43,548 nt of DNA, taken from IMG/VR virus record IMGVR_UViG_3300035088_000007, positions 1-43,548 of that record; one strand, written 5' to 3'. The DNA comes from a virus. The notes beneath the pieces were generated by a model. It did not search any database. It saw only the letters and a list, made by a program, of their open reading frames with translations, and was not told the DNA's origin. Every line of letters begins with the position of its first letter. The stretch's first letter is position 1. This document shows, one piece after another, positions 3,941 through 38,487 of this stretch. The translations under genes were made by a program, and so were the position numbers.

Positions 3941-4117
3941 CTATTCCTCCTCGATCGTGATGCGGTAGGTCTTTCCGGACTTGAAACCGCCCCGCGACTT
4001 CAAGAGATTGAGCAGCACGTACTCGTCATGCGACGTGGGCTGATTGATCACCGTGAACAACACTTTCAGGAGGCCATTGGTTCGGGTGGATGACGAACAT
4101 TCTCCGATAAGCTGCAT
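3941..4117 (-). CDS. Hypothetical protein (58 aa)
   Basis: The start is taken at the ATG lying just after the stop of the upstream gene (TGACATG). It encodes MQLIGECSSSTRTNGLLKVL, a short central helix and an acidic end (YRITIEEE). The TTG or ATG codons further upstream would overlap the preceding gene. Its stop is three bases from the next gene's ATG, whose GAGGAGG ribosome site lies inside its last codons. No family is recognised. Confidence 0.6.
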   Translation of the reverse strand: MQLIGECSSSTRTNGLLKVLFTVINQPTSHDEYVLLNLLKSRGGFKSGKTYRITIEEE

Positions 4118-4118
4118 G

Positions 4119-4496
4119 TCAGTGGTGCCAGAAAGCGATTGCAGTTGTGATGGCCCATCCAACTAGAGCGGCAGCGAGCAACAGACCGGCTGATTTACCG
4201 CTCGATTTTTCCAACCCAGATGTCACATGTTCAAGACGCTTCGCCATCTCATCAAGGCGCATATTGGTCTCTGACTTGCTGGCGAAGTTCTCCTGCTGGT
4301 CGCGCATCGCCTGGCGGAACTCGTTCACCGAGTCGAAGCGCTTTTCAGTCGCCGTCTCGGCTTTCAGGATGGCCTTCTCCGCTGATGCCATCGCCGCGTT
4401 GACACCCTCCTTCGCGGCTTTCGATATCTCCATCACGTGGATGTAGAGCGTATCGAACGTCCACCCGTTCGAGTTTCCGGCGCCAGTCACCGCCAT
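4119..4496 (-). CDS. Coiled-coil protein with C-terminal membrane anchor
   Basis: The protein has 125 residues: WTFDTLYIHVMEISKAAKEG, then a long charged helix (AEKAILKAETATEKRFDSV and onward to residue about 95), then one C-terminal transmembrane segment (GLLLAAALVGWAITTAIAFW). This order, with the KRFDSVNEFRQ motif, is typical of a widespread tailed-phage protein found beside holins and endolysins. It probably resides in the inner membrane with its coiled coil in the cytoplasm or periplasm. A role in lysis timing is inference. Confidence 0.75.
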   Translation of the reverse strand: MAVTGAGNSNGWTFDTLYIHVMEISKAAKEGVNAAMASAEKAILKAETATEKRFDSVNEFRQAMRDQQENFASKSETNMRLDEMAKRLEHVTSGLEKSSGKSAGLLLAAALVGWAITTAIAFWHH

Positions 4497-4572
4497 CGCC
4501 CCACCACGCCGCCGCAGCGATGAGGCCGACCACCGCCGGATAGACCACCAGCCAGTACAGCCAGCCAGTCAT
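4345..4572 (-). CDS. Small membrane protein overlapping the next gene
   Basis: Starts immediately after the stop of the preceding gene (TAG then ATG). The first 26 residues form one clear hydrophobic helix (MTGWLYWLVVYPAVVGLIAA). After about residue 30 the frame runs inside the following gene for about 150 bases and becomes Arg/Asp/Gly-rich, probably a by-product of the overlap. The N-terminal helix is likely real; the tail may or may not be functional. Confidence 0.5.
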   Translation of the reverse strand: MTGWLYWLVVYPAVVGLIAAAAWWGDGGDWRRKLERVDVRYALHPRDGDIESREGGCQRGDGISGEGHPESRDGD

Positions 4573-4893
4573 CTATTTGATCTTCACGACGAAGATCTTC
4601 GAAATCCACTCCCATGCTTGCGATATCGCGATGATCGCGCCGAATATCGTGGCTCCGGCGATCATGAGGAATTTGCGGACAACGTTGGCGTTGTTCATGA
4701 ATTGGATGGTGGATTCCAGTTCCTCTATCTTGGCCTTGTCGGCGCGTCGCAGCCATTCCTTGGCGTCGGGCGACATGTCGGCGATGAACTCGGCCGCCTC
4801 CCACATGTTGGCGACGCGCTGATCGGTCATCCCGACCCAGAATGCCCGCTGCACATCGGTCAGGCCCTCCGGAATATCGTCCCGGGCTGACAT
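4573..4893 (-). CDS. Membrane-anchored lysis-region protein (holin-like)
   Basis: A 106-residue protein. The N-terminal half is soluble and helical (DVQRAFWVGMTDQRVANMWE, SPDAKEWLRRADKAKIEELE). One C-terminal transmembrane segment lies at VVRKFLMIAGATIFGAIIAI, ending with the basic KIFVVKIK. Its architecture is related to that of the coiled-coil anchored neighbour downstream. The start is the ATG sharing a base with the stop of a 24-codon frame (TGATG). Membrane location is clear; the lysis role is inferred from position. Confidence 0.65.
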   Translation of the reverse strand: MSARDDIPEGLTDVQRAFWVGMTDQRVANMWEAAEFIADMSPDAKEWLRRADKAKIEELESTIQFMNNANVVRKFLMIAGATIFGAIIAISQAWEWISKIFVVKIK

Positions 4894-4967
4894 CAAATGT
4901 TACCTGTAGGTGTGCGATTTCGGACATAGTCGATTGAATAACCTGTGGTTGAATTGCCGCCAGCCAT
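4893..4967 (-). CDS. Possible leader peptide (24 aa)
   Basis: An ATG eight bases after AAGGGG opens a 24-codon frame (MAGGNSTTGYSIDYVRNRTP...) whose TGA shares its A with the next ATG (TGATG). The good ribosome site and coupling suggest that its translation feeds the membrane protein downstream. It could also be a short coding remnant. Confidence 0.4.
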   Translation of the reverse strand: MAGGNSTTGYSIDYVRNRTPTGNI

Positions 4968-5001
4968 CGGTTGACCCCTTCCCGGGTTGATTTGGTGGTT
5001 A

Positions 5002-5853: not shown

Positions 5854-6125
5854 CAGCCGCCCGACTTGGCGTTGGCGACGGCGGTCTGCACGGCAGGACC
5901 TGCCGCTGGCGTGGTCTGCACATTGACGCCGGGCAGCTCCTGCGCATTGGCAGCCATGGCAGCCGGACGGTTGGACCAGATCGACCAGCCGGCGGCGCCG
6001 AGCGCGATGATCGAGGTGGTAAGCCAGTCAGCCATGCCAGCATTGATCCAGCCTTTGGCGATGGCGAAAGCCAGGATGGCCGGCAGAATAGCCCGTAGCG
6101 GGCCCGCGATTTGATCCCAAGTCAT
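5853..6125 (-). CDS. Holin (Pam3 gp28-like family)
   Basis: A 90-residue protein with two transmembrane segments: PLRAILPAILAFAIAKGWI and WLTTSIIALGAAGWSIWS. The NRP-containing sequence that follows (NRPAAMAANAQELPGVNVQT) is typical of this small alphaproteobacterial holin family. It would form the inner-membrane lesion that releases the endolysin. The gene lies 67 bases downstream of the endolysin gene and is coupled to the spanin-like gene. A short hairpin (GCCGAA/TTCGGC, 6141-6158) precedes its ribosome site. Confidence 0.8.
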   Translation of the reverse strand: MTWDQIAGPLRAILPAILAFAIAKGWINAGMADWLTTSIIALGAAGWSIWSNRPAAMAANAQELPGVNVQTTPAAGPAVQTAVANAKSGG

Positions 6126-6192
6126 TTCAGTTCCTTCAATGCCGAAATACCGTTCGGCGTCGGATCGTGACTTTCCCGCTCCCGACGAGGCT

Positions 6193-6825
6193 CTAAGCGA
6201 GCGCGCTGGGATGCTGGTCCGGTAACGAATCTCGATGTCCGTCTCCTGGGTGGCGACGGATGATTTCGTCCTGCACGGCGCTGACCAGATCGTGCTTGAT
6301 CATGTTCTTGCCGGGGCAGCTCTTGTGGGTTGTCTTTGGGTCTTCCCTGTGGAAATGAAGCCCGCGCGCGCCGAGCGCATAGGGCAGAACCTGTAGCCCA
6401 GCCGCAGCATGCAGGATGGCCAGCGCGGCGACGAGGTTGGTACGGATCGGGCCGGCGAACGGCTCACGATCGAACTCACCAACGGTCTCCACGCCCCACG
6501 ATACCGAGTTCCATGATGGCGAATGGGTGCCGGGGCTGGTCAGCGGCGAAAACACCAGAATGCCATGTGGTGTCACGAACAGATGCGGGCCGGCGCTCCA
6601 GTGCTGCTGGTCGCGATAGTAGCCGACGAGGTTCTGCGCCCACTGCTCGTCCGTGACCGGCTTGGCGCGTATCTGCCAGCCCTGCCAGGTCTTGAGATCG
6701 GGAGAACTCGTATTATGCACGACAACAAACCGGGGTCGCCATAGCCCGAACTTCAGTGTCTCAACGTATTTCTCGAACTCGTCCGGAGTGAAGGATTTAC
6801 CGACGATACCGCGCCATGTGGTCAT
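6193..6825 (-). CDS. Endolysin: N-acetylmuramoyl-L-alanine amidase (Amidase_2 type)
   Basis: A 210-residue protein that should cleave the bond between muramic acid and the peptide stem. VVVHNTSSP around residues 34-42 supplies the first zinc histidine (H37). GLHFHRED (155-162) supplies the second, and KSCPGKN (168-174) supplies the cysteine ligand. WGVETVGEF matches the family's central strand. There is no signal peptide, so release needs the holin next door. Transcription is leftward with the late genes. Confidence 0.88.
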   Translation of the reverse strand: MTTWRGIVGKSFTPDEFEKYVETLKFGLWRPRFVVVHNTSSPDLKTWQGWQIRAKPVTDEQWAQNLVGYYRDQQHWSAGPHLFVTPHGILVFSPLTSPGTHSPSWNSVSWGVETVGEFDREPFAGPIRTNLVAALAILHAAAGLQVLPYALGARGLHFHREDPKTTHKSCPGKNMIKHDLVSAVQDEIIRRHPGDGHRDSLPDQHPSALA

Positions 6826-8062: not shown

Positions 8063-8755
8063 TTATCCTCTGGAGAATTGCGGCGGCTTGAATGCCGCGC
8101 GGAGTTTAGTGAGATCGACGCGCGGGCGTGGACTGGCGAATATCGGTTGCATCTGCGGCGCGGCCGCCGGTTGGTAGGCTGGAGTATCGGGGGCCGGCTG
8201 CTGCGGGGCCTGCTGGGGCGCTGGCGCGGCTTGGGCGAATATCGGCGCAGCCGGCGGCTGTGGCGCTACCAGAGCGGGTTGCGGGGGCGCGGCGGCGGCC
8301 GGCGGCGGTTGCCCGCCAACCTTCCGCGCCGCCCATGCCTGCAGATCGGCCGCCGTCATATTGGCCAGGAACGGGTTGGCCTTAACCACACCGGGGCCCA
8401 GGATCTGGGATACCGGCGCGCTCGGATCGGCCTGCAGCACGCTCACCGCGCCTTGCGGCCCGGCAAAATGCGCCAAATAGGTATTACCGTCATTGACAGG
8501 CAAGCCGGCCTTGGCCAAAACCGCTTGGTTCTGTTGGGCATAGGCCTCAGTGGCTTGGCGAGCGAGCTGCGGATCCGTCTTCAGGGCGAGGAGTGCGGAA
8601 TCAGGCTGCTCGGCTAGATCGGGGCGCATGCTGCGGATGGTAGACAACCAGGTCGAGTCGATGAATTGCCCAGGTCCGGCTGCCGACGAATTTGGATTGC
8701 GCGCGTTCGGATTGCCGCCGCTCTCGGCGCCAATTATGGAGTCGATCAAACCCAT
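8063..8755 (-). CDS. Virion-associated lytic transglycosylase-like protein
   Basis: 230 residues. The N-terminal domain carries the SLT signature IIGAESGGNPNARNPNSSAA, with catalytic Glu11, followed by GPGQFIDSTW. It should cut the glycan strand during DNA entry. From about residue 150 the protein becomes Pro/Ala/Gln-rich (QPPPAAAAPPQPALVAPQPP), a flexible tail. It lies between the fibre and the internal virion proteins, which suggests a virion component. Its ATG and a rightward ATG share the same CATG. Confidence 0.8.
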   Translation of the reverse strand: MGLIDSIIGAESGGNPNARNPNSSAAGPGQFIDSTWLSTIRSMRPDLAEQPDSALLALKTDPQLARQATEAYAQQNQAVLAKAGLPVNDGNTYLAHFAGPQGAVSVLQADPSAPVSQILGPGVVKANPFLANMTAADLQAWAARKVGGQPPPAAAAPPQPALVAPQPPAAPIFAQAAPAPQQAPQQPAPDTPAYQPAAAPQMQPIFASPRPRVDLTKLRAAFKPPQFSRG

Positions 8756-8861
8756 GGATTCAAACCCGTATGAGGGATGGCTCTACAAGCTGGTCCCGCC
8801 GCTCGCCTATGGGGTCTCATGGGCGGCTGCATTCGCCATTGTGATCTGGCTCACGCATTAG
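8754..8861 (+). CDS. Antisense-oriented very small membrane protein (35 aa)
   Basis: A rightward frame exactly fills the gap between two leftward late genes. It starts in the CATG shared with the transglycosylase start and stops four bases into the 3' end of the next gene. It encodes MDSNPYEGWLYKLVPP and one hydrophobic helix (LAYGVSWAAAFAIVIWL). GGAG is 12 bases from the ATG, rather far. The hydrophobic end resembles the other antisense protein at 6877. Translation is plausible but unproven. Confidence 0.4.
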   Translation: MDSNPYEGWLYKLVPPLAYGVSWAAAFAIVIWLTH

Positions 8862-10825
8862 CGGCGCGCACGGCGCTGTTCGCGGTTGTCCGGAATCGCG
8901 GCCAAGGCCCCGCCTGAAGCCCCGCGCTGCACGTTCCGAGCGATGTTGTTGACATAGGCGATGCGCGCCACCGTGCTCTGCACCATGTTGCGGAGCTGGC
9001 CGGGCGTCATGGTCGCGCCGTTTTGCAACAGGATATCAGCGATGCGCTGGCGTACCGCTGGCGTGTTTCCGGTTAAAGCATTGCTGCCGGCGGCAATCAG
9101 GCTGCGAACCATACCGTGAATATTCCCGGTCAGGGCCTGCCCAATCAAATGCACATTTGCGCCGGCAGCAGCATCATGTGCGAGGTTTTTGGCAGTCGGC
9201 GATCCACCCAGCGCCGTCGCACGCCCCTCGAACATGGTCTGTTCGCGGCCGATCCGGCGCTGCATAAGCGCGTTGCCGGGCGCCATTGCGTTGGCCTCGG
9301 CCTGAAATGCATCGTTGATCAGCGGCCGGGCCTTGTTGGCGCCGAAGGCAGCACCTTGGGCATTGGCGATCAGCGGATCCACATAGCCGGAGCGGAACGC
9401 CTGCTGGCCCTCCGGCTGCAGCGCCTGAAAGGCCGGGATTGTGTCCTCGGTGCGGCCGCGTGTCGCCGCCTGCCGGCCGGTTTGCACCGCCTCGATGTTC
9501 CTAGAGGCCTGCGCGAAGTTCTGGTTGGCCTGCCGATAGCCGGGGCTGGCCGCCTCCATAGCGGCATCCAACTGGCGCACCGCGCCGCCAATCAGCCGCG
9601 CCCGATTTCCCTGCCCGCCGCGGCGCGCCGCCTCCGCTGCATCGGCCATGTCGCCGCGAATGCGTTGCACGGCCTCGAAATCGTCAGGATTGACCCGCGC
9701 CAGACGCTGCCGGAACGGGGTCAGCGCCGCCTCAATGCTGTCATTGGCCGCCGTCAGGACCTGACCTGGCTGCGTGCCGATGATCCGATCAAGATGGTTG
9801 ATAGGCGCGACCAAATCCACCGGCGCTGATCCGCCGCGCACCGCGCCGAAATCCGCATCAGCCGCCGCTCCGCGCGCCGCTGTCATCCGGGCCTCGGTCT
9901 GGGCAGCGGTCTCCGGCGCATTGAAGCCCTCGGCGAGCGCATTGGAGATCCGGCGCCCCTGCGTGCCCTGCCGGCCTTCCAGCGCATTGACGACCGCCGT
10001 GCGGGCGGTTCCGGGCCCGCGCGCCGCCGCGCCAAGCATCTCCTGCCCTGCGTTGCCCATGGCGTCGGCGACGTTGAACACGCCTTGGCCTTCCCGGGCG
10101 GCCTGCTGCACCGAGGCTTCAATCTGGGCCGGGGTCATCCCGCTTTCGCTGATAGCTCGAGCAACCTGGGCGGTGCCGAACCGCTCCGGGTTCACTCGCG
10201 CTGCAACGTTGGCGAAGATGGGCGAGGCAACGCCATGCGCGAGCGCGCCGGCGGCCGGGAAGCCTGCCCCGAGCGCCCCGCCAATCAGTGCGCCGGTGAC
10301 CGGGTTTTCTCCTCTGATCGCCGCGTCCGTGCCGCCGATCGCCGCATTCGACGCCCCGCCGGCGGCGACGCGCGCGCCGAGGCCGCCCGTCACGCCCATG
10401 ATGCCAGGCGCAGCAGCGAGCAGAGGGGCCATCGCCGCGGCGCCTCCTGCGAATTTTGCCGCGGTGTCGACATAGGGATGCTGCCCCGCAAACTTGGTGT
10501 CAGCGCCTTCCTGGAGGGCCAGCGATTTCGCGTAGCGCTCGCCGAACGTGTCGCCCTGAAGCTGGTTCTCCTTGTCGAACAGCGGATTCAGCGCCGGTGC
10601 AAGAGCTGCGTTCGTCGCCGCATTGGCCTTGTTAAGCAGGCCGCCAATGACCGGGATACCAGAGGCCGCCGAGCGCACAACCTCGTTAGTCGTGACGGGT
10701 TCAACTGGCGCGCTCGCCGCCAAATGCTGCTGCAGGATCTGGAACGCCTGCGCGGGCGTAGCGCCTTCGGGACCCTCGATCGAGTAGGTTTTCCCGTCCG
10801 GCGATGTCAGGTCAAAGGTTGGCAT
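8858..10825 (-). CDS. Internal virion / DNA-ejection protein
   Basis: 655 residues. The N-terminus MPTFDLTSPDGKTYSIEGPE with GATPAQAF is a small domain often found at the front of podophage internal proteins. A Gly/Ala-rich amphipathic region follows (residues about 50-200, e.g. GALIGGALGAGFPAAGALAH), then a long helical, Arg/Glu/Ala-rich region. It is probably packaged in the head and ejected with the DNA to build a channel. It is the largest virion protein and is coupled (TGATG) to the other large internal protein. Confidence 0.7.
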   Translation of the reverse strand: MPTFDLTSPDGKTYSIEGPEGATPAQAFQILQQHLAASAPVEPVTTNEVVRSAASGIPVIGGLLNKANAATNAALAPALNPLFDKENQLQGDTFGERYAKSLALQEGADTKFAGQHPYVDTAAKFAGGAAAMAPLLAAAPGIMGVTGGLGARVAAGGASNAAIGGTDAAIRGENPVTGALIGGALGAGFPAAGALAHGVASPIFANVAARVNPERFGTAQVARAISESGMTPAQIEASVQQAAREGQGVFNVADAMGNAGQEMLGAAARGPGTARTAVVNALEGRQGTQGRRISNALAEGFNAPETAAQTEARMTAARGAAADADFGAVRGGSAPVDLVAPINHLDRIIGTQPGQVLTAANDSIEAALTPFRQRLARVNPDDFEAVQRIRGDMADAAEAARRGGQGNRARLIGGAVRQLDAAMEAASPGYRQANQNFAQASRNIEAVQTGRQAATRGRTEDTIPAFQALQPEGQQAFRSGYVDPLIANAQGAAFGANKARPLINDAFQAEANAMAPGNALMQRRIGREQTMFEGRATALGGSPTAKNLAHDAAAGANVHLIGQALTGNIHGMVRSLIAAGSNALTGNTPAVRQRIADILLQNGATMTPGQLRNMVQSTVARIAYVNNIARNVQRGASGGALAAIPDNREQRRARR

Positions 10826-13746: not shown

Positions 13747-14062
13747 GGATGGCGTACCGGAAGATGCGGTCGGTCTGCGCGTTGTTGGCGTGGGTCAGCG
13801 TGAATGACCCATTTGCAACGGTACTGGCGTAAATCGTTCCGGCGCCGACCTCGGCTGCCGCGTTGGCCGTCATCGCGGTCAGGATCGGCGTGGAGCCGGC
13901 CGCGATCGAGCCGGTCTGCGTTGGTGTGACAGTGGTAGTGGCCACGTTTGCCGTCAGCGTCACCGTCCCGGTCGCGTTCGAGCGGCCCGCCGCGACCTGC
14001 TGGATAGCCAGAACGATTCTCTTAAGATCAGTTTCCGTAATTGGCGGAACGAATACGGTCAT
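13739..14062 (-). CDS. Small virion protein, beta-rich
   Basis: The ATG overlaps the upstream stop as ATGA and encodes MTVFVPPITETDLKRIVLAI, a helix, then a Thr/Ala-rich all-beta domain (GTVTLTANVATTTVTPTQTG, GSFTLTHANNAQTDRIFRYA). This resembles a small decoration or tail-stalk protein. 107 residues. The function is inferred from composition and position next to the nozzle gene. Confidence 0.6.
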   Translation of the reverse strand: MTVFVPPITETDLKRIVLAIQQVAAGRSNATGTVTLTANVATTTVTPTQTGSIAAGSTPILTAMTANAAAEVGAGTIYASTVANGSFTLTHANNAQTDRIFRYAILG

Positions 14063-15771
14063 AGCCTGGCGCCGCCCTTCACATCGGGGACCACACCAGC
14101 AATAAACGTCCATGTCGTCCCGGCCGGAATCCGGACCTTGAAGCGGACATATCTGGTATCACGCGTCATATCCACTCGGCCGGTGCGCGAACTCATCAGC
14201 ACTTCAGTGCCTTGGGTCGATGTCGTTCCTACCTGCGTATCCCGATAGGTGATCGAGCCGTAAACCGTTGCGGAATCCGTGATCGGTCGGAAGCCCTTCA
14301 CCGTGACCCTGATTTCGTCGTCGCCCTGCTCTGCGCTCTCCACCGTCGCTTCAAGGTTGGTGCCGGAGAAGAATCCAAGCACATGCGATGAATTGAACTG
14401 CGCGATTTGCGGTTGAACTGCGGTCGCGTAGGAGTCGAGCGAGAGCGTCAGCGCATCGAGCGATGACGAGATGCTGTCGAGGTTCTCCAGCGTCAGGCCA
14501 GTCTGCGAGATGCCGAGCAGATATTCGCCGGTGGCCGTGATCGGGAAGAAGCGCTCGAGCAGATAATCGTAGCCGAGTAATTTGTCATAGGTTCCGACCG
14601 TGCCGGACACCGATTTGTAGGCCCAATAAACCCGCGTGGTCCGCGGATCGGCCGCGCCCATGAACAGTTGAAGGTTGCCCTTGTCGAGGTCGGCCAGAAA
14701 TGTCCGGTCGACCTTCTCCCGGCCGATTTGCTCCGGCACGCCGCCTGGTTGGATCTTGTGAAGACCCTGACCTGCGTAGAAAAAGATGATCTCGCCGGCC
14801 CTGATGATCGAGTACGGGGCAAACAGACCCTTGTCCTGCGTGATGCGGTCAATCTGGAAGATGATCGGCGAGCCCGGCACGTAGGACATGCGTCGGATAG
14901 CCTGGTCCTGAAAGATGATCCCGGCCTCGCCGCCCGCCACGCCGCGCACAATGCCGCCGTCCGGGAAGTCCTGAAAGTCGGAACTGTTTGTTCCTGAAGT
15001 CCATGACGCTGAAGCGTTGAAGCTGTTGAGACCGGACCACTGGATGCGGTAGGGCTGCGACAGAAGCCCGGACAGCACGAGAAACCGTCCAACCACGCTG
15101 ATATAGGCGGCCTGCGGCGGCGAGCCCAGCGCATTGGTGAAGGTACTCGACGTGTTGAGGTCATAGACCTGCAGGAGAGCATTCGCATGAGTGGCAAACA
15201 CCAGACTACCGGCCTGCGCGAATTGCCACTGCGCGGAGGCCCCAACGTCCAGATAATGCGATGTAACGGAGTGCGTACCTGAGCCGGCTGTTGTCGTATT
15301 GATCCGTGCTCCGCCCGGCGTCGCCGAAACACTGAATACAGATCCGGAAAGTCCGGTTGCGCTGACATAATAGGTTGTCCCTGCAACCAGAGGAGACGGC
15401 AAGGTTCCTGTTGTCGAGAATGCAACCGGCTCGTTTGCGACGAACTCGTTCGCATATGTGATGACGGCTGGGCTTGCATTGGAGATCGACGCCACAGCAG
15501 CCGGAATGCCAACATTTTTCCAACTGAACGTGGTGTTGTCGAGCATATAGAGCCCATGGCTCGTCGCTCCGAACGTGATAACCGAGCCATCGGATTTCAG
15601 AGCATAGAACGCACCGCGGCAGGCTGCGGGGAGCGATCCGGTATAGGCCGAGAAACTCGGGAACGGTCCATATCCATCGCCGCGCGGCGCTACATTTAGG
15701 ATGGAGTGAACGCTTGTTCCTTCGTAGTCCGATGTGTCGGGGCGCCAGTCGCCGTAGACAAGGAGTGGCAA
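14059..15771 (-). CDS. Probable tail nozzle / hub protein
   Basis: 570 residues from a TTG behind GGAGAG. It starts MPLLVYGDWRPDTSDYEGTS and shows repeated strand units such as FFYAGQGLHKIQPGGVPEQI and RVYWAYKSVSGTVGTYDKLL, a propeller-like pattern found in podophage tail nozzle or DNA-stabilisation proteins. Residues about 95-170 hold an inserted domain of the type TTYYVSATGLSGSVFSVSAT, a unit found in many phage fibres. It probably forms the distal tube of the short tail. Confidence 0.65.
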   Translation of the reverse strand: MPLLVYGDWRPDTSDYEGTSVHSILNVAPRGDGYGPFPSFSAYTGSLPAACRGAFYALKSDGSVITFGATSHGLYMLDNTTFSWKNVGIPAAVASISNASPAVITYANEFVANEPVAFSTTGTLPSPLVAGTTYYVSATGLSGSVFSVSATPGGARINTTTAGSGTHSVTSHYLDVGASAQWQFAQAGSLVFATHANALLQVYDLNTSSTFTNALGSPPQAAYISVVGRFLVLSGLLSQPYRIQWSGLNSFNASASWTSGTNSSDFQDFPDGGIVRGVAGGEAGIIFQDQAIRRMSYVPGSPIIFQIDRITQDKGLFAPYSIIRAGEIIFFYAGQGLHKIQPGGVPEQIGREKVDRTFLADLDKGNLQLFMGAADPRTTRVYWAYKSVSGTVGTYDKLLGYDYLLERFFPITATGEYLLGISQTGLTLENLDSISSSLDALTLSLDSYATAVQPQIAQFNSSHVLGFFSGTNLEATVESAEQGDDEIRVTVKGFRPITDSATVYGSITYRDTQVGTTSTQGTEVLMSSRTGRVDMTRDTRYVRFKVRIPAGTTWTFIAGVVPDVKGGARL

Positions 15772-15772
15772 G

Positions 15773-15802
15773 TTAGCTCTCTCCTGCGGTGACTTCGATC
15801 AT
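15773..15802 (-). other. Nine-codon minicistron before the nozzle gene
   Basis: An ATG overlapping the upstream stop (ATGA) opens a nine-codon frame (MIEVTAGES, TAA) that ends one base before the TTG start of the nozzle gene. Its GGAGAG codons supply the ribosome site for that TTG. It probably serves translational coupling rather than producing a functional peptide. Confidence 0.35.
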
Positions 15803-16728
15803 GGGTAATACGCAGCAAATTGCGCAGCGGTGAGGAAGTTAGTATAGCCCTGCGACTGCGCCCAACTGATCAAAGCTGGCGTCGATGGCGTCAGCATCTT
15901 GTAGACGCCAGCATCCTTCAAGGCGAATAGCTTGTAGATCCTGTTGACCCAGGCCCTGACGCCGTTCGTCGTGGTCACGAAGTCGTTGTAGAAACCGTTA
16001 TCGAGGACGCCGCCAGAGACGTTCTGCACGTTGCACGCTGTCCGCTTGTTGCAGTACTGGACCATCGTGCAGTTCTCGATACCGAGATCACTTATGCCCT
16101 TCAGACTAAGGTGGTTTCCGCTGCTGTCTGTGAAGTAGCAGCCGAGCGTCGTATCCCAGTGGCGCCAGTGCCCCTGACTATTTTCTTCCATCGTGATGTG
16201 GCCATTGTCGTAGCCATTCGGCGCGTCGGTCAGCAGAGCGACAATTCGTGTGCTGAAAGTGCCGTACTGATCGAGCATGTCTTTGGTGAACTGTGCGATG
16301 TCACCGCACAGCATCTCGATCTCCTGATGCATGGCCTTGTTGCAGGCGGTTGTGTCAGATATGCCACCGTCGCGTGGTCCATTGTGATGGACGCAACTGA
16401 GCGCGCCTATATAGGAATCAACATCAGCCGTATAAGGAGCGGTGCCGTTCTGGCAAACCCTCTGTTCAACAATTCCACTGTTCGGATCGAACCAGCGCGC
16501 TGTCTGACCGTGTACCATATCGTATGGATTTCCGCCGACTAGATACTTTCCTGGCACGACATGGAGATGAGCGGGTAGAGCTACGGCGCCAGTGCCGCTA
16601 GATGAGATTGGGAGCGTGGCAATAGACGTCCCAGAATAGACGTTTGCAATCATCGTCATTGAGCGAACCTGCTTTATTGGGATAAATGAAGCCGCGATAA
16701 GCGGCAGAAACTCGCGGCGGGAAATCAA
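15799..16728 (-). CDS. Tat-signal transglutaminase-like protein
   Basis: 309 residues from a TTG five bases after the fibre gene stop. MISRREFLPLIAASFIPIKQ is a textbook twin-arginine signal (SRREFL plus hydrophobic core). Cys141 in LCGDIAQF, His177 in NGHITME and Asp192 in HWDTTLG have the spacing of the transglutaminase-like Cys-His-Asp triad (H to D is 15 residues), with GNHLSLKGISDL after it. It may act on peptides or cross-links in the host envelope or the virion. An internal ATG (residue 24, behind AGG) would give an unexported form. The location between fibre and nozzle genes is unusual. Confidence 0.65.
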   Translation of the reverse strand: MISRREFLPLIAASFIPIKQVRSMTMIANVYSGTSIATLPISSSGTGAVALPAHLHVVPGKYLVGGNPYDMVHGQTARWFDPNSGIVEQRVCQNGTAPYTADVDSYIGALSCVHHNGPRDGGISDTTACNKAMHQEIEMLCGDIAQFTKDMLDQYGTFSTRIVALLTDAPNGYDNGHITMEENSQGHWRHWDTTLGCYFTDSSGNHLSLKGISDLGIENCTMVQYCNKRTACNVQNVSGGVLDNGFYNDFVTTTNGVRAWVNRIYKLFALKDAGVYKMLTPSTPALISWAQSQGYTNFLTAAQFAAYYP

Positions 16729-16732
16729 CTAT

Positions 16733-18307
16733 TTACTGAGTTCCAAAGCAGACGACGTCCCCGGATATGCTGGGATCGCTGAGCGCAAAAGCCGTGCTGA
16801 AGAAATTGAGTCGTACCGTCGATGCCGTCTTTGCAAGTATGCTGCAAAACGGACCACTGCTTGTCGCTGTCGCAGATCCGGGGACTGCCGCAAAGTTAGC
16901 GGTCGTGAATGCCGTCGTGAACGTTACGGTATAATCACCAGCACCATTGCGCGTTACCGAGGTGACATTGAAGCTATCGTTGATCGTTGGACCTACTTGT
17001 GGCTTGAAGGTAACCCACGCCTTTGCCGCACTCGGATGGTCTTGCTGATGAAGTGGTGTAATCGCAAGCGCATTACTCGAAGGTGTTTGCTGATCGGTCT
17101 TCGCCGCGGCGGTCACAGTGATCGTGCCGGTGGTGGTTATCGTGCCCCCAGTTGCAAGCCCAGCAGTTGCAACGCTCGTAACTGTTCCTCCACCAGCAGG
17201 CGTTGTCCACGTCCCGTCACCCCGCCAAAATGTGCTGGACGAGGCTCCCGTTCCGGAGTTCAGGTTATTGACTGATAAATTCCCGGTGACGCCGGTTGAA
17301 AGAGGAAGACCAGTGCAGTTCGTCAGCGTACCTGACGTTGGTGTACCAAGAAGGGGAGTCGTTAAGTTCGCCGAAGTCGAAAGCACCATATTGCCAGTGC
17401 CGGTGACAGCATTGGAAAGGGTTACGCCTCCATAGGTGATTGCAGCGCTGAACGTTGATGCGCGCGTGTGAATTATTGCTCCGGTCGAGGTTCCACCAAG
17501 CGTAATTGTGCCGCTACCCTTGGCATCGATCGAAAGGTTGGTATTTGATCCCGTATCAACGGCCGCAAGCGCAACAGTCCCTCCGGTAGCTGCTCCGGTG
17601 AGCTTTAAGCCAGCAACTTGGGAAGCAGTAGAAGCGTCTACCTGAAATGCTGGATTGTTGGCCCCACCTGCCCCTACGGTAAGAGCAGATGCAGATGTAG
17701 ACGCCGCAGAAATCGTACCATTGACATTAACTGCGCCGGTGAATGCCTGTGTTCCAGTAAATGATTGTCCCGCGTCGGTCCGCGCGATCGTGGCGTTGGT
17801 CGTCGGGAACGTCATTGTCGTTCCGTCAGTGCCGGCCAACGTCAACGTATTGCTGAAAGTGAACGTCTTTCCGGCCGTCCCAGTCAGCGTATAGGTGCCG
17901 GTCGTGAACGTATTGCCGTTGATCGATGTAGCTGTAGCCGCGCCGAGCGTCGGAGTGACGAATGTCGGCGAAGTGACGCGCGCAAAGTTGCCGGTGCCAC
18001 TCGTCCCGGTGAAGGTCGCCACTCCCGTAGCGAATAGCGGGACGCCGCTGGATGCACTGACGTCGGCGCCGAATCCGCCACGCGCGGCCGCGAGCGTACC
18101 ACCCCACGAAAATGTCAGGGTTTGGGCCGCAATCACGCCCTGAACGTTGGTATCGTTGACGACGGCCTGGACGACGTTCGCATTGAGCTGGGAGGCGTCA
18201 GACGTTCCGGTCAGGGTGTGGTTAGCATCCCAGTCAGGTCCACCTACAAGTGCTTCCGGGCTGGCTGCAGCGCCGGTGACGGTGGTATGCGTGACGACAA
18301 GTGTCAT
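16733..18307 (-). CDS. Tail fibre protein
   Basis: 524 residues, strongly Thr/Gly/Ser/Ala-rich with short beta repeats (e.g. [20 protein letters not shown]). [20 protein letters not shown] in the C-terminal half is a hallmark phage-fibre segment. The end ([34 protein letters not shown]) is the receptor-proximal part. It is most likely the main adhesion fibre. The ATG overlaps the small upstream gene by ATGA. Confidence 0.85.
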
Positions 18308-22953: not shown

Positions 22954-23253
22954 TCAGAGAATGCCGAATTTCTTCTTGCGTTCGGCGGTTTCAGCGAGTT
23001 CGCGCAACTGAGCCGCAGCCAGCTTGCCGTCATTCAGCACGGCTCCGATATGGTCCTTGATCTTCCCGATGATCTGGACGGCCTGCCAGACCCGTTCCCG
23101 GCCCTCGCTGTCGCGCAATGGCGTCGCCTTCCATGCCGCGATGTATTCGGCCTCCAGCGTCGCCAGGGCGTCATTGAACAGTGAATTATCGAGCAGCGAT
23201 TGCGCCTCGACGGCGCGGCTATTTTCCCTGAGCAGCTTGTGTTCGTCGATCAC
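22954..23253 (-). CDS. Small conserved phage protein
   Basis: 99 residues from a GTG overlapping the glycosyltransferase stop (GTGA). ALATLEAEYIAAWKATPLRD and GRERVWQAVQIIGKIKDHIG form two helices in a pattern found beside scaffold genes in many phages. The function is unknown. Confidence 0.7.
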   Translation of the reverse strand: MIDEHKLLRENSRAVEAQSLLDNSLFNDALATLEAEYIAAWKATPLRDSEGRERVWQAVQIIGKIKDHIGAVLNDGKLAAAQLRELAETAERKKKFGIL

Positions 23254-24536
23254 GCGGCCATCCTTCGCTGGCTGAGCATGGTTTCAAGCTCCCGGCGCAC
23301 CGCCTCAATCGGCCACTCGTCGACCGTGGTTTGCCGGAAAATCCGGTGGCCGCGGTACCATTGCGTTTTGGCGCCCTTCATCCAGCGCCAGCACGGGGCT
23401 TTCCCCAGCATCAGCAGCACGGGCTTTCCAAGAGCCCCAGCCATGTGAGCATTGGCCGAATCCGTCGCCACAATCACGTCCATGGCTGAAATAGCGGCCG
23501 CGGTCGAGCGCCAGTCTGTGAAGGTCGAGCCGAGGTCTGCAATGAATCCATCCAGCCCGAGGCTCGTGATCTCCTCCGGGCCAGGCTTGACCTGAAGGGA
23601 GTAGAATGCCGCTCCCGGCAAGTCGAACAATGGGCAAAAGGCGCGGAGGTCGGCCGATCGCAACGCATCATTCGCATAGCCGGGAGAGCCTTTCCATGAG
23701 AGGCCGACCTTCAACCGTCCCCTTTCAGGGAGATTGACAGGCGCGCTCGTCATGTAAGCCAAATCATTGACACCCGCGTATTCGATCCCCATCAGCGCAC
23801 ATGCGGCCATCGGGGAGGTAACAAAATCCGCTTTGAACGGGCCGGCCTCGTTGATCACGTCGTCGAAGCAGTCGAACTGCTCGGCGATCAACGGCGCGAG
23901 GCTTTCAGGACCGGAAAACACCAGCTTTGCGCACTCATCCCGGAGGATCGGCGCGAACCGGATGAACTGGATCGTGTCGCCGAATCCCTGCTCGTGGGTC
24001 AGAATGACGGATTTGCCCGTCAGATCCTCGCCGTTCCACCATTTAATCTTGCTCGCGCTGATCGGCTTGCGGGGCTTGATGTGGTGCTTGACCTCGAACT
24101 CGTAGAGCCCTTCCTTCAGCTTGCCCATGGCCAGTTTCGCGATAGCGATCGACTGGTGGATCTTCGGCTCGTTGATATCGGCCTCAAGGCTCAGCTTGTA
24201 CCAGTTCAACGCCTCCTGGTATTCGTAGCGATCATGATGCGCCAGACCGATATGGTGCATGACCAGCGATCGGCGGTCCCGCGGCGCGATCTCGAGCGCG
24301 GCCCGGAACGTCCCGATGCTGTCCAGACCGCTCCGCATCAGCGCCGATGCGTAATTGAATACTGCGATGAACTCGTTCGGCGCCACGTTCGCGCAGCGCT
24401 TGGCAATGGCCAGTTGGGCCGGGCTGCGCGGCGTGGTCGACAGCAGCGTATACTGGTTGGCGAGGTGCTCCGGGTTGTCCGGGTCGTCGAGCAGATGCGC
24501 TGCCGTCTTTTTGTAGGCGTCGATGATCTCGGTCAC
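23250..24536 (-). CDS. TPR-containing glycosyltransferase
   Basis: 428 residues from a GTG in a GTGA overlap. Residues about 30-155 are helical TPR-like repeats (e.g. LVMHHIGLAHHDRYEYQEAL). From about 174 the GT9/GT41-like catalytic part follows: SVILTHEQGFGDTIQFIRFA, KVGLSWKGSPGYANDALRSA, and the donor-binding VIVATDSANAHMAGALGKPV. It probably transfers a sugar to a virion protein or to host surface glycans. No membrane segment is seen. The position between portal and scaffold genes is unusual. Confidence 0.8.
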   Translation of the reverse strand: MTEIIDAYKKTAAHLLDDPDNPEHLANQYTLLSTTPRSPAQLAIAKRCANVAPNEFIAVFNYASALMRSGLDSIGTFRAALEIAPRDRRSLVMHHIGLAHHDRYEYQEALNWYKLSLEADINEPKIHQSIAIAKLAMGKLKEGLYEFEVKHHIKPRKPISASKIKWWNGEDLTGKSVILTHEQGFGDTIQFIRFAPILRDECAKLVFSGPESLAPLIAEQFDCFDDVINEAGPFKADFVTSPMAACALMGIEYAGVNDLAYMTSAPVNLPERGRLKVGLSWKGSPGYANDALRSADLRAFCPLFDLPGAAFYSLQVKPGPEEITSLGLDGFIADLGSTFTDWRSTAAAISAMDVIVATDSANAHMAGALGKPVLLMLGKAPCWRWMKGAKTQWYRGHRIFRQTTVDEWPIEAVRRELETMLSQRRMAA

Positions 24537-25006
24537 GGTTTCGGCGTAGCCTCCGCGGGCTTCTCGGGGATCTGGGCCGAATGAGGCTTCGTCACATCCG
24601 GATCGTGCTTGATGTCCATGTCCATCGGGGGGATTGGCTCGGCCCGCTTCGAAACATTCAGAGCGCCAGGGATGGAACCTTGCGTGGCTGTCGGAGGCAC
24701 GTACATTGCCGGACCAGCGTTCTCGAAATGCACGGGGTTGACAGGGTTTGGCATCGTGGCCGGCGGAGTCCTGACCGGAGGTGCCGGCGGCTTCTCGGCG
24801 GCCAGCTTCTCCCGCTCTGCCGCAGCTTTCTCGTCATCGGCCTTCTTCATGTCGGCCTCGAGCTTCGCGTTGGTGAAGACCCAGCCGGCCTTTTCCATCT
24901 TACGGATCATCACGATGGCCTCGGTGATCGAGACCCTGGATTGCGTGGCCTCCGCGATCACGTGCGCCAGTTCCTCGTCGAGCTTCGCCTGTGCGATCTT
25001 ATCCAT
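24533..25006 (-). CDS. Hypothetical protein, charged helix and Pro-rich tail
   Basis: 157 residues. The N-terminal half is helical (ELAHVIAEATQSRVSITEAI, MKKADDEKAAAEREKLAAEK) and the rest is Pro-rich and disordered (PPAPPVRTPPATMPNPVNPV). It overlaps the portal C-part by eight bases and is joined by GTGA to the glycosyltransferase. It may be a minor head protein or a substrate or adaptor of its neighbours, but there is no direct evidence. Confidence 0.6.
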   Translation of the reverse strand: MDKIAQAKLDEELAHVIAEATQSRVSITEAIVMIRKMEKAGWVFTNAKLEADMKKADDEKAAAEREKLAAEKPPAPPVRTPPATMPNPVNPVHFENAGPAMYVPPTATQGSIPGALNVSKRAEPIPPMDMDIKHDPDVTKPHSAQIPEKPAEATPKP

Positions 25007-26729
25007 TTGGCTTCTCCGGTTTTGCCCTCATCTGCTCCAGCTTGGCCGCGTGTGATGCGTCGTTGTGTTCCATTTTCTGGTCGTGGGCTGCAGCGGTCGC
25101 GGCCATGCCGACGATGGTTTCAGCCACCTTGGCGCGGTGCTGCTGGTGGTCTGCAGCCGCCTTGCGCTCCATCTCGATCGCTTTCATGTGCAGTTCCAGC
25201 ACCTTTATTTTGGCGTCGAGTTCCGCTTTCACCTGAGCAAGTGCGGCCGCATCCTTGGCCTTCTGCTGGTCAAGCTGGGCCTTCATCGCAAGCTCGGCCT
25301 GGTCGCTCTTGGCCTGCTCCTGAATCGCCAGCACCTTCGGGTCTGGTGTCGGCGGCGGGGGCGGGTGCATCGGCTTGCCAGTCTGCGGATCCTTGGCCTG
25401 CGGGTCGTTGAAGAACCGATCCGCGTTCTTGTGGCCCATCAGCTTGCAGATTTCGGACGCGAGATTGAAGATGTTGATGTCGTCGACGAGGTTGGTCTTG
25501 CCGCCGGCGAGAAGCTTTTCCTGGAGTCCGGCGATCGCCATGTTCTGGGCGAACTGCTGCGCCTTGCCGCCGGTTCCAAGCCCGACGCTAATGGTCATGT
25601 CGTCCCGGGTCGTCCATTGCCTTGGATCGACGCTTACCCATTTGTTCCGCAGGCGAACGGTCTCAGCCTGCTGGCCATGCTTCCTGATTGTGCCGTGCAG
25701 CAGGGAGAAGATGTCTCGCACCCCCTCGGACATGATGCGCGCGATCAGCTTCATTCGCATCTGCGAGGCCGAGAACACCTGAGCAACCGCGGTCGCCGTC
25801 TGGTTCTGCAGGGCGTTGGCGTCGATGCCCTGCCCCTGCTTAGTGACACCGGTGCGGGTTTCGAGCTCGGCGTCGAGGTATTGCAGCATCGGGTAGATCG
25901 ACGAGGTGATATCAGGAACCACCTGCCAGTTCAATCCGCCCGCCGTCTTTGTGCGAACCACGCCACCAGGGCGGCTAACCAGAAGATCATCGAGAGTATT
26001 CGGTCCAGCATTCTGCTCTGCAACTTCAACCCGGGGGTTGTTATGCAAATACAGATTGTCCAGCGCGCCCCGCTTCAGCGCCGTCTTCTCACGCTGCAGT
26101 GGCATCACGAGATCGGCCATCGACCGGCCGAAGAATCGGTGCGTCATCGGAACCGGCGTGGTGGCCGCGATCGGGATGGCGTCAATAGGTTCTATCGCCT
26201 CCTTTCCGTCCTTGCGCAGGATCTCGCCCTGATCCCCAGCCGTGGTCACCATGTAGAGGCACGGGCGCCCGTTGCCCTCGTAATCCATCCGAATGTAGTG
26301 CTCGGTGATCTTGACCGGGCGTGCTGCAGCGTTCGTGCTTGCTCCGCCAGGCACGGCCAAATGCTCGGAAACCGTGTCACGGGCGATCGTTTCGATTTCG
26401 GTCAGGCCAGTATATTCAGTCAGGCTCTCAATCTGAGCCTTGTCAAACCCCTCCGCGGCGAGCTGCGCCGGCGTCTTGGTTACGACCTCGTGGAAGGCGT
26501 AATTGCAGGTCTTGATGTCCCGCGCCGCGCGTTCAATCCCGAATTCCTCGGGCGGGATGCCGAGGACCCGGGCCTGGGCCATCTTCCTGGTGGTGACGAT
26601 CGTGACGTCATGCGTGGTCGGCTTTGGGGGCGCGGCCATTTGCTGTGCAGGCATCACGGCGGGCGGGGAGAACATTGACGAACCGTTGCCAGCGCCTTGG
26701 AGCATGGCCGATGGCGTCATGGCATCCAT
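24999..26729 (-). CDS. Portal protein, C-terminal part (SU10 type)
   Basis: 576 residues. Residues about 40-110 (HDVTIVTTRKMAQARVLGIP, PEEFGIERAARDIKTCNYAF) continue the wing of the SU10-type portal. RFFGRSMADLVMPLQREKTA is the stem helix region, LDAELETRTGVTKQGQGIDA is the hallmark of the crown-side part, and a long coiled-coil barrel follows (AKSDQAELAMKAQLDQQKAK). With the upstream gene it makes one complete portal of normal length. Translation starts at TGATG. Confidence 0.85.
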   Translation of the reverse strand: MDAMTPSAMLQGAGNGSSMFSPPAVMPAQQMAAPPKPTTHDVTIVTTRKMAQARVLGIPPEEFGIERAARDIKTCNYAFHEVVTKTPAQLAAEGFDKAQIESLTEYTGLTEIETIARDTVSEHLAVPGGASTNAAARPVKITEHYIRMDYEGNGRPCLYMVTTAGDQGEILRKDGKEAIEPIDAIPIAATTPVPMTHRFFGRSMADLVMPLQREKTALKRGALDNLYLHNNPRVEVAEQNAGPNTLDDLLVSRPGGVVRTKTAGGLNWQVVPDITSSIYPMLQYLDAELETRTGVTKQGQGIDANALQNQTATAVAQVFSASQMRMKLIARIMSEGVRDIFSLLHGTIRKHGQQAETVRLRNKWVSVDPRQWTTRDDMTISVGLGTGGKAQQFAQNMAIAGLQEKLLAGGKTNLVDDINIFNLASEICKLMGHKNADRFFNDPQAKDPQTGKPMHPPPPPTPDPKVLAIQEQAKSDQAELAMKAQLDQQKAKDAAALAQVKAELDAKIKVLELHMKAIEMERKAAADHQQHRAKVAETIVGMAATAAAHDQKMEHNDASHAAKLEQMRAKPEKPNG

Positions 26730-27319
26730 CAGGACGGCTCGCTCTCTTCGACCGGCTCAGAGGCTTCCTCTGCCTCGTTGTTGACCGTATGCTCGACGAT
26801 CTTCATGGTTCCTTCCGAGGCTTCAACCGCTTGAACGAGCAACGCAAACTGGTCTTCAGTCAGGTCATAATACGTCTCGCGGCTCTCCTGCTCGCGTTCT
26901 TCCCAGAAGACCTTGACTAGGCCGGTCTTGCTCAGCAGTGCATCCTTGATGAAGCCGTAGAGGATCATGAAGCCTGGATTGCGCTGCATAAACACATGGT
27001 TCACGTAGTCGGTTTCCTGCTGCGCCGCGTCCTCATCCTCGGGGCCGACCGGATCGAACCGCACAACCTCGTCAGATCCGGCAAAGATGTCCATCAGCGA
27101 CGGCATCAGGCCTTCAATCGTGTCCTGCACATCCATCGAGACAGCCCGAGAGCGGCCGTCCTGCGCCGGCATATCCTTGGCCATGTGGCCCTGGTAATAG
27201 TCCATCGCATCCGCGCGCTCGCCCATCAGGTTGGCGGCCTGCGTCGCAGCCATGGCGCTGGATTTCTCGGCGTTGACCATTGCGCGCAGGTCGGAGATGG
27301 ACATTTTAGCCAAGCTCAT
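26729..27319 (-). CDS. Portal protein, N-terminal part (SU10 type)
   Basis: 196 residues from the ATG three bases after GGAGG. AMDYYQGHMAKDMPAQDGRS and VQDTIEGLMPSLMDIFAGSD, QQETDYVNHVFMQRNPGFMI and LLSKTGLVKVFWEERE are the conserved N-terminal blocks of SU10-type portals. The gene stops in a loop before the next domain, and the C-part starts at the overlapping ATG (TGATG). Either a genuinely two-piece portal or a frame change. A longer start at 27358 lies inside the preceding small gene. Confidence 0.82.
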   Translation of the reverse strand: MSLAKMSISDLRAMVNAEKSSAMAATQAANLMGERADAMDYYQGHMAKDMPAQDGRSRAVSMDVQDTIEGLMPSLMDIFAGSDEVVRFDPVGPEDEDAAQQETDYVNHVFMQRNPGFMILYGFIKDALLSKTGLVKVFWEEREQESRETYYDLTEDQFALLVQAVEASEGTMKIVEHTVNNEAEEASEPVEESEPS

Positions 27320-27467
27320 AGTCCTCCGGAGCAGACCCATCCTTGCGCAGTTTCTCAATCAGCCGCAGCACGCGGAGGAAGCCTGCTCGCTCCTCAAACC
27401 ATCCTTCACCTCGAGACTGTTCGCGAATCCTCGATTCTACCTCCGCAAGGATTTTCGCGTCATCCAT
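27306..27467 (-). CDS. Small acidic helical protein (53 aa)
   Basis: The ATG shares the final A of the terminase stop (TAATG) and the frame ends 14 bases inside the portal gene. It encodes MDDAKILAEVESRIREQSRG and a second helix (RAGFLRVLRLIEKLRKDG). It is short but has coupling at both ends and a codon pattern like its neighbours. It could be a small terminase or portal partner; the function is unknown. Confidence 0.65.
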   Translation of the reverse strand: MDDAKILAEVESRIREQSRGEGWFEERAGFLRVLRLIEKLRKDGSAPEDYELG

Positions 27468-32614: not shown

Positions 32615-33139
32615 TTATCGTCTCCGTGGTTCCAATGCGCGAAAGCAGATTGCGGCGTGTCCGGCGCAATAGGAGCCTTCTGATGTTGGCTGGTTGCAAA
32701 ACAGGTATGGGACGAAATTCCCGTTTGGATATCTGCACCCATCCGGCACCAGCTCGAGCAAAGGGACCGCTCCGGGCCGCGGATCGGGCCGGGGCACGAA
32801 TGCCGCTATCGGATTTCCGATGGCGCTATTGGCTTTCCTGATGGCGATATCTGGCCTCTGGATATTGGGCTTGCGCCCGCGTTTGAATTTCGGCGCAGCG
32901 CCCAAAATTGGTACGGGTGAACTCGGTAGATGCGCCGATTTTTTCCCCATCCGCGCGTTCAGAACGGTTTGCGAAGCCTTCATCGGTATACGTTCCCGCC
33001 TTGCCCGGCCGATCACCGAATTGCGGGATTTCCTGAGCCCGAACGTCGCGTTGATCTGAGCCGCAGCCATCGCTGCAGACAGGCCAGCCTCGAAATGGGC
33101 GCGCAGTGCGTTGTCGTATTCGGGTAACCAGTCGCTCAT
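32615..33139 (-). CDS. GcrA-family cell-cycle regulator
   Basis: 174 residues. LPEYDNALRAHFEAGLSAAM and RKSRNSVIGRARRERI are the N-terminal GcrA DNA-binding motif. The C-terminal part has CRYPNGN, FCNQP and SYCAGH, the conserved sigma-factor-contacting Cys/His region. In Caulobacterales and Rhizobiales GcrA activates genes with CcrM-methylated GANTC promoters. A phage copy might redirect RNA polymerase or link phage expression to the cell cycle. It is transcribed with the early replication genes. Confidence 0.85.
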   Translation of the reverse strand: MSDWLPEYDNALRAHFEAGLSAAMAAAQINATFGLRKSRNSVIGRARRERIPMKASQTVLNARMGKKSAHLPSSPVPILGAAPKFKRGRKPNIQRPDIAIRKANSAIGNPIAAFVPRPDPRPGAVPLLELVPDGCRYPNGNFVPYLFCNQPTSEGSYCAGHAAICFRALEPRRR

Positions 33140-37659: not shown

Positions 37660-38487
37660 ATGCCTCTGGCCATTGATCTGTTTTGCGGCCTCGGTGGCTG
37701 GACTGACGGACTTCTCGCGGAGGGTTACGACGTGATCGGATTCGACATCGAACGGCATGTCTACGGCGAGCACCGCTACCCGGCGCAGCTCGTGGTGCAG
37801 GACGTGCTGACGCTACACGGATCGCAGTTCAAGACCGCTGACCTGATCGTGGCCTCGCCGCCCTGCCAGGAATACAGCTACATGGCGATGCCGTGGAGCC
37901 GCGCGAAGGCAAAGGCTGCGGCGATCCGCGCCGATGACACTGGAGCAGAACTCGCGCGGCTTACGGCGCTGTTTGATGCCTGCTTTCGCATCCAGCGCGA
38001 GGCATGTGAGGCTGCTGGCCGGCATATCCCGATGGTGGTCGAGAACGTCAAAGGTGCCCAGCCGTGGGTAGGGCGAGCTCGCTGGTCGTTCGGATCGTTC
38101 TATCTGTGGGGCGATGTGCCGGCGCTGATGCCGCCGGTCTACAAGGCCACGAAGGTTGCGGGCTTCCGTTTCGACGGCAATGGCGGAAGCTTTCAGACTG
38201 CGGCGGTTGAGGCCAGCGGCATAAAAAATCCGGGCGGCGGCTCTTGGAATATGGACCGCCCGTCTTGGACGCCAGATCATTCGTGGGGAACCAAAAACGC
38301 AGGCGGTTCATGGTTCAAGAACGGCGGGGACTGGTTTGGATCTGGCGAGAATTGCTCGCTTCAGCGCCGGCAGAGTTCCAAAGGAAAAGCCCGCAAGTAT
38401 GCCAGCGCTATGATCGCGAAGATCCCGCTGCCGCTGAGCCAGCACATTGCGGCGGTTTACGCTAATGCCCCGGCAGGGAAAGGTTGA
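37660..38487 (+). CDS. DNA cytosine methyltransferase
   Basis: 275 residues of the C5 family. AIDLFCGLGGWTDGLLAEGY (motif I), VASPPCQEYSYM with catalytic Cys69 (motif IV), VVENVKGAQ (motif VI) and LPLSQHIAAVYA (end motif) are clear. Motif VIII is weak. Between about residues 170 and 230 lies an unusual Gly/Trp/Asn-rich stretch (e.g. SWNMDRPSWTPDHSW). It probably protects phage DNA from restriction. The target site is unknown. Confidence 0.85.
   Translation: MPLAIDLFCGLGGWTDGLLAEGYDVIGFDIERHVYGEHRYPAQLVVQDVLTLHGSQFKTADLIVASPPCQEYSYMAMPWSRAKAKAAAIRADDTGAELARLTALFDACFRIQREACEAAGRHIPMVVENVKGAQPWVGRARWSFGSFYLWGDVPALMPPVYKATKVAGFRFDGNGGSFQTAAVEASGIKNPGGGSWNMDRPSWTPDHSWGTKNAGGSWFKNGGDWFGSGENCSLQRRQSSKGKARKYASAMIAKIPLPLSQHIAAVYANAPAGKG

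Follow-up and report, generated by a model that had tools for sequence, protein, structure and literature searches.

A predicted transglutaminase-like enzyme, possibly exported, in an exchangeable tail-fibre cassette of a Bradyrhizobium-type phage

Our analysis suggests that a phage tail cassette carries, as a swappable component, an enzyme with a papain/transglutaminase fold and a Cys-His-Asp triad. We think it fairly probable that this enzyme acts on amide bonds in the host envelope, that its export is optional, and that it belongs to a temperate, probably short-tailed, Bradyrhizobium-type phage. The phage is represented by a single IMG/VR virus record of 43,548 nucleotides (hereafter, the window, meaning this whole stretch of DNA). 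The major head protein shows 62% identity to that of Bradyrhizobium phage ppBeUSDA76-2. Related contigs number in the hundreds and, where a related prophage has a named host, this is mostly Bradyrhizobium. An integrase-like gene suggests that the phage is temperate. The genes scanned included neither a tail sheath nor a tape-measure gene, and we therefore presume a short tail. The minus strand carries virion genes, among them those for the terminase, a split portal, scaffold, head protein, phrog_2941, fibre, the protein studied here, phrog_3287, a transglycosylase-like protein, collar, and an amidase endolysin.

The gene of interest is a complete minus-strand ORF (15799-16728) encoding 309 amino acids, with a TTG start directly after an in-frame TAG. 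The original prediction, made from the DNA letters, gave exactly these coordinates and described a transglutaminase-like protein, with a Tat signal, in the tail gene cluster. The location is correct. Immediately upstream is a repeat-rich tail fibre gene (16733-18307, minus strand; phrog_11355 tail fibre), whose product has an N-terminal anchor. Downstream, also on the minus strand, is a gene for a conserved virion structural protein, phrog_3287 (14059-15771).

The three residues proposed as a catalytic triad are as described. These are Cys141 (codon 16306-16308), the inferred nucleophile, His177 (16198-16200), within an NG(Y/F/V)D(D/N/E)GH motif, and Asp192 (16153-16155), all read from the minus strand. 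Cys141 and His177 are 36 residues apart, and His177 and Asp192 are separated by 15. Each is invariant across a homologous family in which identity falls to 22-32%. Hence, the triad is not a product of chance.

Members of this family are distant from the window protein. Pfam and PHROGs searches returned no entry at threshold, and no close homologue was found in IMG/VR, GTDB species genomes, or plasmids. Using tblastn, we detected matches in Bordetella phages PBb001, PBb002, and PY223 at 27%, covering residues 27-292 (86%; E 1e-12). The Bordetella protein (XSF69587.1), annotated as hypothetical or not annotated, conserves the triad. Like the window gene, its gene comes after tail fibre genes; the order is a Mu-Gp48-like gene, a glycine-rich fibre gene, a small ORF, and then the homologue. 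It differs in having no signal and in belonging to a contractile-tailed, Mu-like phage. Profile searches identified P0003, encoded in a degraded prophage of a Bradyrhizobium-family genome with an HK97-type capsid gene and an integrase nearby. They also identified L237, a chromosomal homologue flanked by an aminotransferase-like and an asparagine-synthase-like ORF (neighbours judged by eye), and further phage homologues in L238, L239, L240 (two copies), L242, L243, L245, L247, and L248. The outcome is a small phage family of 13 sequences, including that of the window.

In most relatives the gene is directly 3' of a tail-fibre or baseplate gene. Neighbours include tail-fibre PHROGs (L239, L240a, L242, and L245), baseplate genes (L243), and an Rz spanin (L240b). 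Every record searched whole has one copy, except for L240, where the unsignalled paralogue follows a tail fibre and the signalled one is beside the spanin (5962-6819 and 8182-9150 are the two copies). Nine positions (C141, G142, N171, D174, G176, H177, E181, W188, and D192) are invariant in 8- and 10-row alignments. The triad is invariant in every alignment made; across the family as a whole, N171, D174, G176, E181, W188, W260, and R263 are nearly so. The family profile found no match, at E 1e-10, in 369 species from the class of a Lysobacterales MAG or in 385 from the class of Bradyrhizobium. Hence, few cellular genomes carry this family.

Export signals are not absent from the homologues. 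Three carry one: Tat in P0003, Sec in L243, and an Arg-rich signal in L240b. In 8 of 12 homologues there is none. On the family tree the signals have a scattered distribution, and well-supported branches require two changes or more. We also considered whether signals cluster on the tree and rejected this; the label needs four changes, no fewer than shuffled labels.

Structure prediction supports the transglutaminase-like assignment. For the form starting at residue 24 (M24; 286 amino acids), AlphaFold2 with nine relatives gave a pLDDT of 83.4 and a pTM of 0.83. The predicted fold is papain/transglutaminase-like. Note that this run, with ten sequences, superseded one for the TTG form with a five-sequence alignment (pLDDT 48), from which no fold match was significant. 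In Foldseek searches, the best solved matches were transglutaminase-like: the transglutaminase-like cysteine protease 3isr (probability 0.93-0.99), PeiP (0.91), and PeiW (0.87). Arylamine N-acetyltransferases, TG2, vasohibin, and TglA were also matched. Among viruses, the matches were the endoisopeptidase of phage psiM2 (0.97) and mimivirus L280. The Foldseek E-values, of 0.014-0.1 with none below 0.001, are supportive rather than decisive. In the model, using M24 numbering, Cys118 opens a helix (118-132), His154 is in a strand (153-161), and Asp169 ends another (164-169). This is the arrangement expected of the superfamily, with ordered Cys, His, and Asp, the Cys at a helix start, and the His and Asp on following strands.

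Profile comparisons agree. Aligned by hhalign with a protein above the Pfam Transglut_core cut-off, the family profile scored a probability of 91% (E 1e-6), and the C, H, and D columns were matched. P0002 and P0003 have sub-threshold matches to Transglut_core (PF01841), in the right place, at 19.8 and 17.9 bits against a cut-off of 23. The window protein itself had no PF01841 match at the curated cut-off, and none to the PF06035 (BTLCP/HvyA) profile. The family thus resembles Transglut_core proteins (such as PDB 3isr) in its aligned catalytic columns, but is below the Pfam cut-off and has its own N- and C-terminal regions. The alignments and model thus give good support for membership of the transglutaminase-like superfamily, even though scores fall short of the formal Pfam threshold. 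We describe a new phage family, inside a known superfamily, in an unexpected genetic setting and with putatively optional export.

We now turn to the N-terminus. Translated from the TTG, the protein begins (M)ISRREFLPLIAASFIPIKQVRS, followed by M24. The 23-codon extension (16660-16728, minus strand) has SRREFL, within residues 2-23, and the hydrophobic stretch LPLIAASFIPI. Hence, provided that the TTG is used, it has the S/T-R-R-x-F-L and uncharged hydrophobic stretch of a Tat substrate. To estimate how often this arises by chance, we defined a strict motif, [ST]RRxF[LIVMFA] then an uncharged hydrophobic stretch. A six-frame scan of related loci, covering 5.0 million positions, contained it four times. 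The chance per 23-residue extension is ~1.8e-5 from these real sequences; Markov sequence gives ~6e-6. Hence, a chance origin is unlikely, even with ~50 genes in the window. In P0003, a textbook Tat signal aligns at the same position. The TTG is a few nucleotides past the fibre gene stop codon, and the equivalent genes of two sister phages, L004 and L016, have starts placed likewise. The hydrophobic stretch is followed by Lys20 and Arg23; charges at such positions would be unusual in a Sec signal but are consistent with the charge by which Tat signals avoid Sec.

Other features of the extension are less typical. Lys20 and Arg23 also count among its weak points. There is no AxA signal peptidase site near the hydrophobic stretch, the sole candidate, S-I-A, being well removed from it at residues 35-37; P0003 and the L124 protein described below each have an AxA-type site (ASA). 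A crude fixed signal-peptide rule did not call the extension as a signal. NCBIfam Tat models had no match to the window protein, but were equally silent for the textbook Tat homologue and so are uninformative. Two further ideas were discarded. Codon log-likelihood scores the extension as non-coding, but most undisputed signal peptides of the sister phages score as low or lower. A hairpin or terminator, as a cause of the motif, is not apparent; the fold z-score is -0.66 and the terminator count is at the level of shuffles.

The original prediction also proposed a second start at residue 24, and here the evidence is stronger. All unsignalled homologues begin at the M24 equivalent, the phage proteins starting at, or a few residues from, this position (MTIIA in L238, MKIAK in Bordetella phages, MNAK, MTLYQ, and MSLYQ). 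The M24 ATG has a Shine-Dalgarno-like AGGT 7 nucleotides upstream (16667-16670, minus strand) with an energy of -5.3, compared to -3.3 for the TTG, itself a weak start codon (the random median is -3.2). The resulting 286-residue protein (15799-16659, minus strand) is predicted by AlphaFold2 to be a complete domain, folding from its first strand. We conclude that M24 is probably used as a start. For the Tat form, made from the TTG, the chances of use are about even. Note that the two are compatible, and both can be true. The Tat claim is partly supported, by the motif, its improbability by chance, and the signalled homologues. It is weakened by the eight unsignalled homologues, with their M24-equivalent start, and by the better ribosome site at M24.

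A comparison with sister phages indicates that the gene occupies an exchangeable slot. L004 encodes an identical head protein. L004 and the window differ by replacement of the C-terminal part of the fibre and of the entire slot gene (15771-17912, minus strand). The flanks are ~82-92% identical, and the exchanged region contains a single 171-bp island at 75%. The L004 slot (15484-16314), in its tail-fibre cassette, encodes a protein that looks beta-helix-like on inspection, has no Pfam match, and carries a Tat-like signal (MKTISRRAICSGIAATAIIPVRSLAQ). In L124, where the phrog_3287 protein is 98% identical to that of the window, the slot (4109-4996) encodes a SASA-type esterase with a Tat-like signal. 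Slot proteins with Sec signals are found in L016 and in L131, the latter being weakly pectate-lyase-like. SASA/GDSL-like or beta-helix-like proteins, without signals, are encoded in L190, L206, and L020. The alternative slot proteins are putatively sugar-acting. Tat or Sec signals were called in 4 of 7 slot proteins and in 34 of 787 other ORFs in the same loci (Fisher P = 1.4e-4). Note that this count covers proteins of at least 150 amino acids, excludes the window, and uses a simple, crude, fixed rule; the sample is small and the slot was chosen after the first signals had been seen. The original prediction called folded export of a late phage protein by Tat rare; judged from these sequences, export signals appear frequent in the tail-cassette slot of this phage group. 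We found no paper on Tat signals in phage proteins from tail-fibre loci, though our literature coverage is incomplete.

Several known systems are informative, although full-length sequence demonstrates homology for none of HvyA, PeiW/PeiP, and WceF. In its action, Caulobacter HvyA is the closest analogue that has been tested. This periplasmic protein, with the triad C192/H226/D241, prevents capsulation and renders cells sensitive to phage phiCr30; catalysis is required (PMC4241560). Cys-His-Asp spacing is 34/15 in HvyA, a BTLCP protein (Peptidase_C93, PF06035), and 36/15 in the window protein. Both are from an alphaproteobacterial setting. HvyA reaches the periplasm by Sec, and the Tat-like signal might take the window protein there. 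The window protein differs in lacking a PF06035 match and in being encoded by a phage, in a tail cassette; furthermore, most phage members of its family are unsignalled. PeiW and PeiP (from psiM100 and psiM1/M2) demonstrate that phages use a transglutaminase-type fold to cut isopeptide bonds (PMC4592898). They share with our protein a phage origin, a transglutaminase-type triad, and a similar predicted fold (Foldseek probability 0.87-0.97), but are lysins that act on pseudomurein of archaeal hosts. The tailspike-fold enzyme WceF, of Pantoea stewartii, carries a Tat signal (PMC7949094). It provides a precedent for such a signal on a phage-tail-type surface enzyme and may be compared with the L004 slot protein. 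Conversely, WceF is a bacterial gene product with a beta-helix, rather than a transglutaminase-like, fold.

In the model that we favour, the enzyme would be interchangeable cargo of the receptor-binding (tail-fibre) cassette. It would cleave, or transfer, an amide or isopeptide bond in a component of the host surface or envelope. The M24 form would be made with the tail genes and act at the cell surface, during adsorption, either virion-borne or released with the virion. Less certainly, initiation at the TTG would yield a second form, carried folded by Tat into the periplasm of the producing cell. By analogy with HvyA, this form might modify the capsule, or some other polymer of the envelope, and thereby allow progeny to leave or to gain access to receptors; capsule as the target is among the less certain parts of the model. 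A broader idea, which we regard as doubtful, is that the region is a secretion cassette. Here, exchangeable Tat or Sec signals, or alternative starts in one gene, would route unrelated envelope-active proteins (transglutaminase-like, SASA esterase, and beta-helix) either to the virion tail or through the membrane of the phage-producing cell. Enzymes of one class would then work on the infected cell or lysogen from within and, as used by the virion, from outside. If our reading is right, the transglutaminase-like superfamily gains a phage family, and tail-fibre cassettes may carry both exported and virion-bound enzymes. It would also bear directly on the means by which phages clear the envelope of rhizobial hosts that form capsules or slime, and on whether adsorption and superinfection control share enzymes.

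Four other explanations deserve consideration. One is that the protein is an enzyme of the virion or tail only, with the tail as its sole place of action, which is also the presumption for the Bordetella phages. Translation would start at M24 and the Tat-like codons would be untranslated spacer. The M24-equivalent starts of all unsignalled homologues (as in L238 and the Bordetella phages), the better ribosome site, and the complete predicted fold of the M24 form all fit. So does an inverted repeat in the 73-nucleotide gap before M24, though its stability is no greater than that of shuffles. A spacer does not readily explain an in-frame motif expected by chance at ~2e-5, the P0003 signal at the corresponding position, the signals carried by slot proteins of sister phages, or a TTG positioned, like the L004 and L016 slot starts, just after the fibre stop. 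We rate this possibility a little below even. Alternatively, the signals may be leftovers of captured bacterial exported enzymes, with no role for the phage. The chromosomal homologue L237, flanked by ORFs of the kind found in sugar-polymer clusters, and the scattered signals on the family tree point this way. Nevertheless, intact signals recur in unrelated slot proteins, including those of two of the closest relatives (L004 and L124), and we consider a passenger origin unlikely.

The two remaining explanations give the enzyme a different role. The enzyme could be a lysis-type peptidase that cuts peptide cross-links of peptidoglycan, as pseudomurein endoisopeptidases cut their substrate, with the tail form opening the wall at entry and the exported form aiding lysis. 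PeiW, PeiP, and the psiM2 endoisopeptidase do rank among the best fold matches, PeiW and PeiP share the triad and the isopeptide-cutting chemistry, and L240b adjoins an Rz spanin. However, PDB sequence searches gave no match between the window protein and PeiW or PeiP at E <= 10, and the slot alternatives look polysaccharide-directed rather than peptidoglycan-directed. Moreover, separate endolysins are encoded by the Bordetella phages and by the window (Amidase_2; 6193-6825, minus strand). Hence, the transglutaminase-like protein is unlikely to be the principal lysin, and a lysis role is, on balance, rather unlikely. Finally, the Tat form could be made in the lysogen and alter its surface against other phages, resulting in lysogenic conversion or superinfection exclusion. 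This would suit the integrase-like gene of the window, the retention of Tat-signalled P0003 in a degraded prophage that has a major capsid gene and an integrase nearby, and the position of L240b outside the tail block. The window gene is, however, within the late tail gene block, and a search for sigma-70 type promoters found no promoter-like site before it. We therefore view this as distinctly improbable.

Four other regions of the window merit comment. The split portal consists of two overlapping ORFs, in different frames, at 24999-27358 (minus strand), with a TGATG-type junction at ~26728. The same arrangement occurs in L004, L012, L016, and ppBeUSDA76-2 (L260). Hence, it is conserved in the group and not a sequencing error; it represents either two genes or a programmed frameshift. 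Between the portal and scaffold is a 428-codon ORF (23250-24536, minus strand), unusual in a head gene block, with weak glycosyltransferase 9 and TPR matches. At 37660-38487, on the plus strand, is a gene for a C5-cytosine methylase-like protein, the match being confined to the first 75 residues. Lastly, the phage encodes a homologue of the alphaproteobacterial cell-cycle regulator GcrA (32615-33139, minus strand; PF07750, E 1.4e-17).
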